Source: Candidatus Woesearchaeota archaeon (GTDB lineage: Archaea > Nanobdellota > Nanobdellia > Woesearchaeales > GW2011-AR9). From it: 32,505 bases of DNA. The notes below the pieces were generated by a model. That model had not been told where the DNA came from. It saw nothing but the letters and a program-made list of their open reading frames with translations, and searched no databases. The translations under genes and the position numbers were made by a program. Location of the stretch: positions 1-32,505 of the forward strand of contig JAAOXZ010000033.1 in assembly GCA_018221085.1 (NCBI GenBank), in the 5' to 3' direction. Below are positions 3,830-21,408 of this stretch, piece after piece; position 1 is the first letter of the stretch; each line of letters starts with the position of its first letter.

Positions 3830-4660
3830 TCAAACCAACACTTTCTTTTTTCCTTTGTTAAAATTAAGATGATTCTCTTTAGAAATCACTTTTCTGCCGG
3901 TTTCTTTCTCCAGTTCTAATCTGGCATTTCTTGCAATTGATCCGCCTTTTTTTGAATCCTGCTCTAATTGATGAAACTTCTTGGAACCATGAGTTTGAGT
4001 GATTTCTGTGGTTGCTTTTTCTCCAAGCATAGTGAAGATAAGTTCTAAATCGTTCATGTGATCTCTCAAGTTGGCTTTTGATTGTTTTGGAATGTTTTTG
4101 AAATCTTTATGCTGCATAATCCCCATTCCGAATGTTGCTTTGCTTATTTCATTAGTTAAAATTGCAAAGTCTCTTTTTTCTTTCACTCCTCGTCTTTGCC
4201 ACTCTTCTGTTAACTCTTGTCTTATAGCAATACCTCTTAGTCTTTTATCAATCCAATCTTTAGGATAACCTTTCAATTCATAATATTCTTTCACCCTATC
4301 TTGGGCCAGTTCTGGATTTTCTATTTCTTCGATTCTTTCCTGTCCTAGTTGAGATAACCATTGTTTGAATGGTTCAGCTCTTTTAGAAGGAATTGATTGG
4401 ATTATTCTAAAAATACCTTTAGTGTTGGTGCAATTCATTCGCTGTTTCCCGCCTTTTGTCTCAACCTCAAGGGTATGTACAATTTGTACCCACCCTTTGG
4501 AAAGCCACAAATCTCTGCTTTTCAATCTTTGAATGTATTGCTTTGGATCCTCGCTTTCAGTGATAGCAAATACCACATCTTCTATAACATAATACCAGTC
4601 ATTGTTGTACCATGTCCTCCGGATACGTTTATCTTCAAATACGATTAATTTATTTGTCAT
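3830..4660 (-). CDS. BRO-N / DNA-damage-inducible protein D (DinD)-like protein
   Basis: KRIRRTWYNNDWYYVIEDVVFAITESEDPKQYIQRLKSRD (BRO-N) and LTEEWQRRGVKEKRDFAILTNEISKATFGM...TTEITQTHGSKKFHQLEQDSKKGGSIARNARLELEKETGRKVISKENHL (DinD-type). Confidence 0.8.
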   Translation of the reverse strand: MTNKLIVFEDKRIRRTWYNNDWYYVIEDVVFAITESEDPKQYIQRLKSRDLWLSKGWVQIVHTLEVETKGGKQRMNCTNTKGIFRIIQSIPSKRAEPFKQWLSQLGQERIEEIENPELAQDRVKEYYELKGYPKDWIDKRLRGIAIRQELTEEWQRRGVKEKRDFAILTNEISKATFGMGIMQHKDFKNIPKQSKANLRDHMNDLELIFTMLGEKATTEITQTHGSKKFHQLEQDSKKGGSIARNARLELEKETGRKVISKENHLNFNKGKKKVLV

Positions 4661-6113: not shown

Positions 6114-6199
6114 TTAGTTCGTCTTAGATAAATTAGTTCTCGTAGTTAGTAATATATTAGTTCGGGTTAAATTAGTTCAATGAGGGATAAACGAACTAG
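6114..6199. promoter_or_regulatory. Iteron-like TTAGTTC cluster upstream of ftsZ
   Basis: TTAGTTC at 6114-6120, 6133-6139, 6157-6163, 6172-6178; degenerate TTAGTTT at 6079-6085; inverted GAACTAG at 6193-6199, adjacent to TATA-like TATATAAATC. Confidence 0.6.
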
Positions 6200-6275
6200 C
6201 TATATAAATCTTTATATGCTATAGTATATAAAACTCAACAAAAAATAAAAAACAAAAAACGAGAGGTGGTGTAAA

Positions 6276-7354: not shown

Positions 7355-7391
7355 AAAAAAGGGCTTCTGCCCTTTTTATTTTTTATTTTTT
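7355..7391 (+). terminator. Intrinsic-type terminator of ftsZ
   Basis: AAAAAAGGGC-TTCT-GCCCTTTTT stem-loop followed by ATTTTTTATTTTTTTT. Confidence 0.8.
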
Positions 7392-7439
7392 TTCACAATC
7401 ATCCACACATCAAATAAATCACACAAATCACATTTAAAG

Positions 7440-7501
7440 AATCTTGCCTTGGTCTAAATTCTTTACACCACCCCCAAAAGGCAAGATTTTTTATTTTTTT
7501 C
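7440..7501 (+). ncRNA. Candidate structured RNA / second terminator with a loop complementary to the ftsZ RBS
   Basis: 11-bp perfect stem AATCTTGCCTT (7440-7450)/AAGGCAAGATT (7478-7488), 27-nt loop GGTCTAAATTCTTTACACCACCCCCAA, then T-rich tract. Confidence 0.55.
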
Positions 7502-7586: not shown

Positions 7587-7946
7587 ATGTCAAATGAACA
7601 AGAAGGACTTTCTTTGGATGAAGTCTTAAAATTAAAAGATAAAATAAAAATAACCGATTGGCAAGAAACTGCCGGGTTATACCACACCAAATGTGGTGAG
7701 GCCACAGTTTATTTAAGAGAAGACACCGTTTTTTCAAGAGAAGAAACTAGTGACCCTCAATTGATGGGCCATGTCAGTGTAGATTACAACGGATTAAAAT
7801 TGGCTGAATACACTGGTGACCAGGATCCCAGAGTGAATGAATGGTATTTATCTGTTAAGGAAGGCATAGATGCTATCCATGATAAAGAAAGAAAAGAAGC
7901 TCTCCATGGAGCCAGAGAGACAATCAAGAATTTCTTAAAAGAATAA
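7587..7946 (+). CDS. Hypothetical protein
   Basis: 119-aa ORF with upstream GAGGTT; no family recognised. Confidence 0.6.
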   Translation: MSNEQEGLSLDEVLKLKDKIKITDWQETAGLYHTKCGEATVYLREDTVFSREETSDPQLMGHVSVDYNGLKLAEYTGDQDPRVNEWYLSVKEGIDAIHDKERKEALHGARETIKNFLKE

Positions 7947-21118: not shown

Positions 21119-21408
21119 ACGAGAGGGCCAGCTAGGCTGGGGGGTTAGCTCTCCCTTGTTACCATCAACGAGCTTTATGGTGGAGCCGAAGCCCAAGGAA
21201 GGGATAATTTTGTTTTGCTGGTCTTAAGCGTCTTTGCTGACGGTTTGTCCTTTGGGATGGACTTGTTGGGAACCAGGTCAGGCCGGGAACGGAGCAGCCT
21301 TAACTTTCAATCTTCATGTTCAAAGGGTCGCAAACTCGAGAAGCGTTTAAGGTTAAGCTGGTGAGGCTTTATTGTTTCGACTGCGGGCGTGCCCCTAAAC
21401 TCTTCTTC
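21119..21408 (+). ncRNA. SRP (7S) RNA
   Basis: CCAGGTCAGGCCGGGAACGGAGCAGCCTTAA domain IV core (GGAA loop, AGCAG asymmetric loop) and 5' GGCCAGCTAGGCTGGGGGGTTAGC Alu-like region; TATA-like TTTAAAAAT upstream; ends approximate. Confidence 0.9.

Follow-up and report, generated by a model that had tools for sequence, protein, structure and literature searches.

Why should a cell division gene be followed, beyond a structure that looks like its terminator, by a second hairpin whose loop is antisense to that gene's own ribosome-binding site? The question is raised by ftsZ on contig JAAOXZ010000033.1 of a Candidatus Woesearchaeota archaeon (GenBank assembly GCA_018221085.1), of which the whole stretch analysed, here called the window, comprises 32,505 nucleotides. 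The hairpin is conserved, with covariation in its stem, and near-exclusively tied to one ftsZ gene, and its loop matches the Shine-Dalgarno (SD) sequence of that gene. The explanation we consider probable is that this hairpin, in the 3' untranslated region (3'UTR) of the ftsZ mRNA, pairs with the mRNA's own SD and lowers FtsZ translation, in the manner of icaR in S. aureus.

The hairpin and its loop

An 11-bp stem (7440-7450 with 7478-7488) encloses a 27-nt loop, GGTCTAAATTCTTTACACCACCCCCAA, and is followed by a U tract, exactly as an earlier note on this DNA had described; the arms are longer than that note supposed, at 16 nt each with 94% complementarity, and no inverted repeat in the window is longer. 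The fold has a z-score of -6.6, and none of 200 shuffled sequences was equally stable. Within the loop, TTTACACCACC (7462-7472) is the exact reverse complement, over 11 nt, of GGTGGTGTAAA (6265-6275) in the ftsZ SD and spacer, a match that had been claimed before and that a motif search confirms. Exact copies of the GGTGGTGTAAA motif occur only twice in the window, at the ftsZ SD and in the hairpin loop; with up to one mismatch allowed there are four matches against 0.39 expected, a count reached by no shuffled sequence. The 851-kb assembly, of which 847,586 bases entered the own-genome analyses, contains five exact copies of the 11-nt motif.

The 11-bp duplex between loop and leader has an energy of -16.0 kcal/mol, and once the opening costs of 1.95 (loop) and 1.47 (leader) are subtracted a net gain of ~12.6 kcal/mol is left. 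Whether many ribosome-binding sites would fit the loop equally well had been left by the earlier note to be checked: few do, the ftsZ leader ranking third by duplex energy among 757 open reading frames (ORFs), with each competitor allowed any candidate start within its first quarter. A ranking with RNAcofold was uninformative; loop kissing lies outside what that program can represent.

Among the 4227 families of Rfam 15 none matched the hairpin at the gathering score, either in the window or in the loci of 40 relatives, and none was credible by E-value, which rules out a known Rfam RNA. A motif called ftsZ-DE, reportedly from work by Weinberg in 2017, bears a name that suggests an association with ftsZ; if it is within Rfam 15, no locus matched it. 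A dispersed repeat is likewise ruled out, as the hairpin is single copy in the genome.

Conservation of the hairpin and its match to the Shine-Dalgarno sequence

Relatives were collected by an FtsZ protein scan of genome contigs, which yielded 80, nearly all labelled Woesearchaeota or Nanoarchaeota. By an automated stem search, about 70 of 81 Woesearchaeota loci have a homologue of the hairpin downstream of ftsZ, so that the retention in relatives for which the earlier note had proposed a check is borne out; at L032 and L038 it is also evident when the sequences are read by eye. The distance from stop codon to hairpin ranges from 1 to 202 nt, and with the shortest cases at 1-20 nt the hairpin probably lies in the 3'UTR. 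Tandem pairs of hairpins stand 3' of ftsZ at L044, L045, L087, L089, G149:C10, G061:C126 and G032:C110.

Two forms can be recognised. Clade A comprises the window together with its nearest relatives, approximately the set of at least 80% identity; its stem is AATCTTGCC..GGCAAGATT and its loop TTACACCACCCCC. In clade B the stem is TTGCCTTCA..TGAAGGCAA and the loop ACCACCCCC or ATCACCCCC. Clade B loops never vary in their core C residues, and those of clade A hardly do. Compensatory change in the stem is well above shuffled and slid controls, with double changes in 47 cells against 11.6 when shuffled, and 11 against 2.6 in a second test; the stems were picked for pairing, which biases the paired percentage but does not explain double changes at aligned positions.

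A covariance model of the clade B form (R1) matches in 205 of the 288 genomes of the order, mostly as a single copy, and one of the clade A form (R2) in 40 of the 49 genomes of the window's family, usually as a single copy. FtsZ of the window's type is encoded by 282 of the 288 genomes, and the gene lies immediately upstream on the same strand in 59 of the 60 best loci fetched (29/30 for R1 and 30/30 for R2). The 131 matches listed from a search of the phylum (371 genomes) all fall in the window's order. Within its own genome the window hairpin is the sole convincing R2 match (E 2.6e-13; the next has E = 0.87), and the second FtsZ gene of that genome (G000:C9), whose 3' neighbour begins almost at once, is without such a hairpin.

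The SD of ftsZ is itself unusual. GGGGG serves as SD in 33 of 45 clade B ftsZ genes as compared with 1 of 205 neighbouring genes, and GGTGGT is found in the SD of 17 of 22 clade A ftsZ genes as compared with 2 of 144. Clade A loops pair in longer runs with their own SD than with the SDs of the five nearest relatives having another SD (26 better, 6 worse, 2 ties; p = 3e-5), and the cognate duplex energy is also better (p = 0.0016). Matched variants are GGTGGTGG with CCACCACC at L024 and L030, GGGGTGTA with TACACCCC at L026, and GGTGGTA with TACCACC at L032. Most lineages that lack the hairpin have ordinary SDs, and all six ordinary-SD loci (L068, L071, L072, L073, L086 and L094) are without it, these lineages amounting to one or two events on the FtsZ tree.

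About a dozen clade B loci contain a second element between stop codon and hairpin, typically TCACCCCTTTAGTCTTTGTGGTGA, two blocks of which are complementary to ACCACAAA-n-AAGGGGTG in the ftsZ leader (L049, L042, L064 and L040). It lies 2-95 nt after the ftsZ stop at L040, L042, L047, L049, L057, L064, L079, L081, L085 and L092, and is absent from the window. In the pattern set, which includes a few false members, the cognate energy of element and leader beats that of permuted pairs (p = 0.006; p = 0.05 by run length).

A proposed mode of action and its rivals

In the mode of action that we propose, the C-rich loop would base-pair with the G-rich ftsZ SD, in cis or from one copy of the mRNA to another. 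Because the 11-bp duplex spans both SD and spacer, it would be expected to block binding of the 30S subunit and thereby reduce FtsZ synthesis. The loop would exist only once transcription has run through the coding region and, in the window, also past the first terminator-like hairpin. This separate putative terminator, already pointed out in the earlier note, is present as a hairpin with a U tract, and a 3' end at 7356-7391 would yield a short ftsZ mRNA without the anti-SD hairpin; among the relatives an earlier U tract lies between stop codon and hairpin at 37 of 105 loci. Nascent or early-terminated ftsZ mRNA would be translated and the full-length mRNA ending at the hairpin silenced, and whether an mRNA contains the silencing loop could depend on which 3' end, first terminator or hairpin, is used. 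A GGGGG in place of GGAGG should still pair with the anti-SD through G-U wobble and would fit a C5 loop perfectly, and such an SD could let the loop distinguish ftsZ from ordinary SDs; a pattern search of the assembly did not recover the 3' end of the 16S rRNA, from which the real anti-SD would be read. Pairing in the cell, repression as its sign and control by choice of 3' end are what we infer from these features of the sequence.

Several observations weigh against this mechanism. In local folding the mean unpaired fraction is just 28% for the SD and 39% for the loop. The joint variation of loop and SD that the earlier note had proposed as a test is found within the window's clade and fails in clade B, where there is no cognate-specific fit past the shared CCCCC/GGGGG (p 0.7); the match is uniformly C5 to G5 in that clade, and a cognate signal is therefore not expected there. 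On the FtsZ tree the coarse SD class changes only ~7 times and the coarse loop class only ~6 times, so that Fisher p-values for these classes are inflated, and independent pairs on the tree are too few for testing. Weak cognate pairs are seen at L018, L023 and L029. The clade A loop is also partly unexplained, because most ftsZ SDs offer no partner for the conserved CCCCC that follows CACCACC.

That surplus of C residues, conserved past the needs of ftsZ, is one reason to consider a small RNA (sRNA), whether a fragment of the ftsZ 3'UTR or a transcript in its own right, that would act in trans on ftsZ and perhaps on others such as the replicative helicase gene mcm. Of all ORFs in the genome, mcm fits the loop best, through its SD GGAGGGTGG (G000:C45:5812, L230), with ftsZ third, and GGGGG occurs in 10 of 30 mcm leaders of the family (L230 and L283-L311) as compared with 5 of 144 neighbouring genes. 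Archaea possess RNAs of this kind: sRNA154 and sRNA41 of Methanosarcina mazei are trans-acting stem-loop RNAs whose loops mask ribosome-binding sites (reviewed in PMC5867862). They are intergenic, whereas the ftsZ element would sit in the 3'UTR of the very message that it targets, and no tested sequence is shared between the two. Loops show no cognate fit to mcm leaders across genomes (n = 16, p = 0.21), and mcm was rejected as a co-evolving trans target in spite of the enrichment of G-rich leaders; moreover, the hairpin keeps its place next to ftsZ and turned up nowhere else. We regard a trans-acting product of the hairpin as unlikely, if worth keeping in view. The earlier note had allowed for either an independent sRNA or a 3'UTR that masks the SD. 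The second of these is favoured by order-wide conservation at ftsZ, stem covariation and the loop-SD match; the first is unlikely as an sRNA with a promoter of its own, since the short stop-to-hairpin distances of some relatives leave no intergenic room for one, and the promoter-like element suggested upstream of the hairpin could not be recovered (no TATA-like element is seen by eye in 7392-7440).

The hairpin might instead be an ordinary terminator or mRNA-stabilising structure with a protein-bound C-rich loop, the SD match being a by-product of a G-rich SD facing a C-rich loop. A run of at least five U follows the stem at 65 of 105 loci, and the loops of clade B vary hardly at all and do not follow the SD of each locus. 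We nevertheless think this quite unlikely: an ordinary terminator does not keep its sequence, its stem pairs and its neighbouring gene throughout an order, and a plain U-tract terminator would have an unconstrained loop, whereas here the core C residues are kept and a single copy is linked to ftsZ. The ftsZ SD is unusual exactly where the hairpin exists, clade A shows a cognate fit, and matches between 3'UTRs and their own SDs have no general excess in the genome (mean run 5.75 against 5.68 in shuffled pairs, so that such pairing as a genome-wide rule was rejected). An activating effect, in which loop-SD pairing circularises the mRNA and so protects it or primes re-initiation, would gain from the second clade B element, CACCCC..AGTC..TTTGTGGT, which in several loci also matches the leader upstream of the SD and could let the ends anneal over a longer stretch; it is very improbable, because pairing through SD and spacer up to the AUG should block 30S binding and the comparable icaR pairing represses (PMC3868564). 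Chance complementarity in an A/T-rich genome is scarcely credible. Although 2 of 288 genes in the genome have an 11-nt match between 3'UTR and own SD, hairpin, loop and SD are conserved over more than 200 genomes.

Gene context, known systems and implications

The FtsZ of the window has M. jannaschii FtsZ1 as its closest solved structure (1fsz/1w58, E about 1e-95). The position of the TATA-like stretch (Table 1) implies a short, A-rich leader, probably of roughly 25-40 nt. Upstream of this promoter TTAGTTC is repeated four times within 65 bp (6114-6178), with 15 copies in the whole window and none in L016; it is perhaps the site of a regulator. Past the hairpin lies an ORF of 119 aa (7587-7946) with no Pfam match, which is absent from L016, where prolyl-tRNA synthetase comes directly after in its place. 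The window also encodes a Bro-N domain protein (E 1.9e-9; 3830-4660, minus strand), of a family frequent in mobile elements and viruses, and an archaeal signal recognition particle RNA (21125-21395; Rfam RF01857, 117 bits).

Table 1. Features of the ftsZ locus, in window coordinates
Feature	Positions	Strand	Basis or remarks
Probable ftsZ promoter, TATA-like stretch TTTATATG...TATATAAAA	6211..6233	+	Predicted from sequence
ftsZ SD and spacer GAGGTGGTGTAAA	6263..6275	+	Loop target is 6265-6275
ftsZ, 353 aa	6276..7337	+	Pfam Tubulin 6.5e-46, FtsZ_C 3.8e-32
First terminator-like hairpin AAAAAGGGCTTCTGCCCTTTTT and U tract	7356..7391	+	Folding, sequence
Conserved anti-SD hairpin	7435..7493	+	Arms 7435-7450 / 7478-7493; folding, inverted-repeat search, model R2
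Anti-SD loop segment TTTACACCACC	7462..7472	+	Exact antisense of 6265-6275
U tract past the stem, probable 3' end of long ftsZ mRNA	7486..7500	+	Sequence reading

The closest parallel is the icaR mRNA of S. aureus, in which UCCCCUG of the 3'UTR pairs with UAGGGGG at the SD, reducing translation and triggering RNase III (PMC3868564). As there, a C-rich 3'UTR motif is the complement of the mRNA's own G-rich SD (exactly over 11 nt in the window, with p = 3e-5 in clade A), and the CCCCC/GGGGG of clade B is almost identical in its letters to the icaR pair. The ftsZ element differs in being archaeal, in belonging to an essential division gene, and in carrying its motif in the loop of a 3'-terminal hairpin conserved order-wide. 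The hok mRNA of plasmid R1 is subject to fold-back inhibition by its own 3' end. It resembles the proposed mechanism in that a full-length, completed mRNA falls silent once its 3' end anneals to its 5' region. It differs in being a toxin system in which the mRNA is processed at its 3' end and an antisense RNA takes part, none of which is seen at the ftsZ element. The hok mRNA is named as an analogy in PMC3868564.

A literature search, which was not exhaustive, found no paper on a regulatory RNA at ftsZ in Woesearchaeota. We know of no archaeal mRNA silenced by pairing between its own 3' and 5' UTRs. The hairpin points to an RNA switch, not described before, that would act on cell division in archaea. 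In a wider picture, possible but doubtful, it would represent a new archaeal RNA family spread through the order, in which the 3' end of ftsZ silences its own SD and synthesis of FtsZ is confined to mRNA that is nascent or was terminated early, the choice between terminator and hairpin setting its level; the second 3'UTR element would join the pairing in some lineages, and the free C run may reach mcm and so tie division to replication.

The hairpin explains an oddity that would escape annotation pipelines, the unusual SD of ftsZ (GGGGG or GGTGGTG). No study known to us deals with how the level of FtsZ is set in archaea, above all in the uncultured DPANN; with a conserved hairpin and a matched SD across an order, the question becomes directly testable with short reporter constructs.
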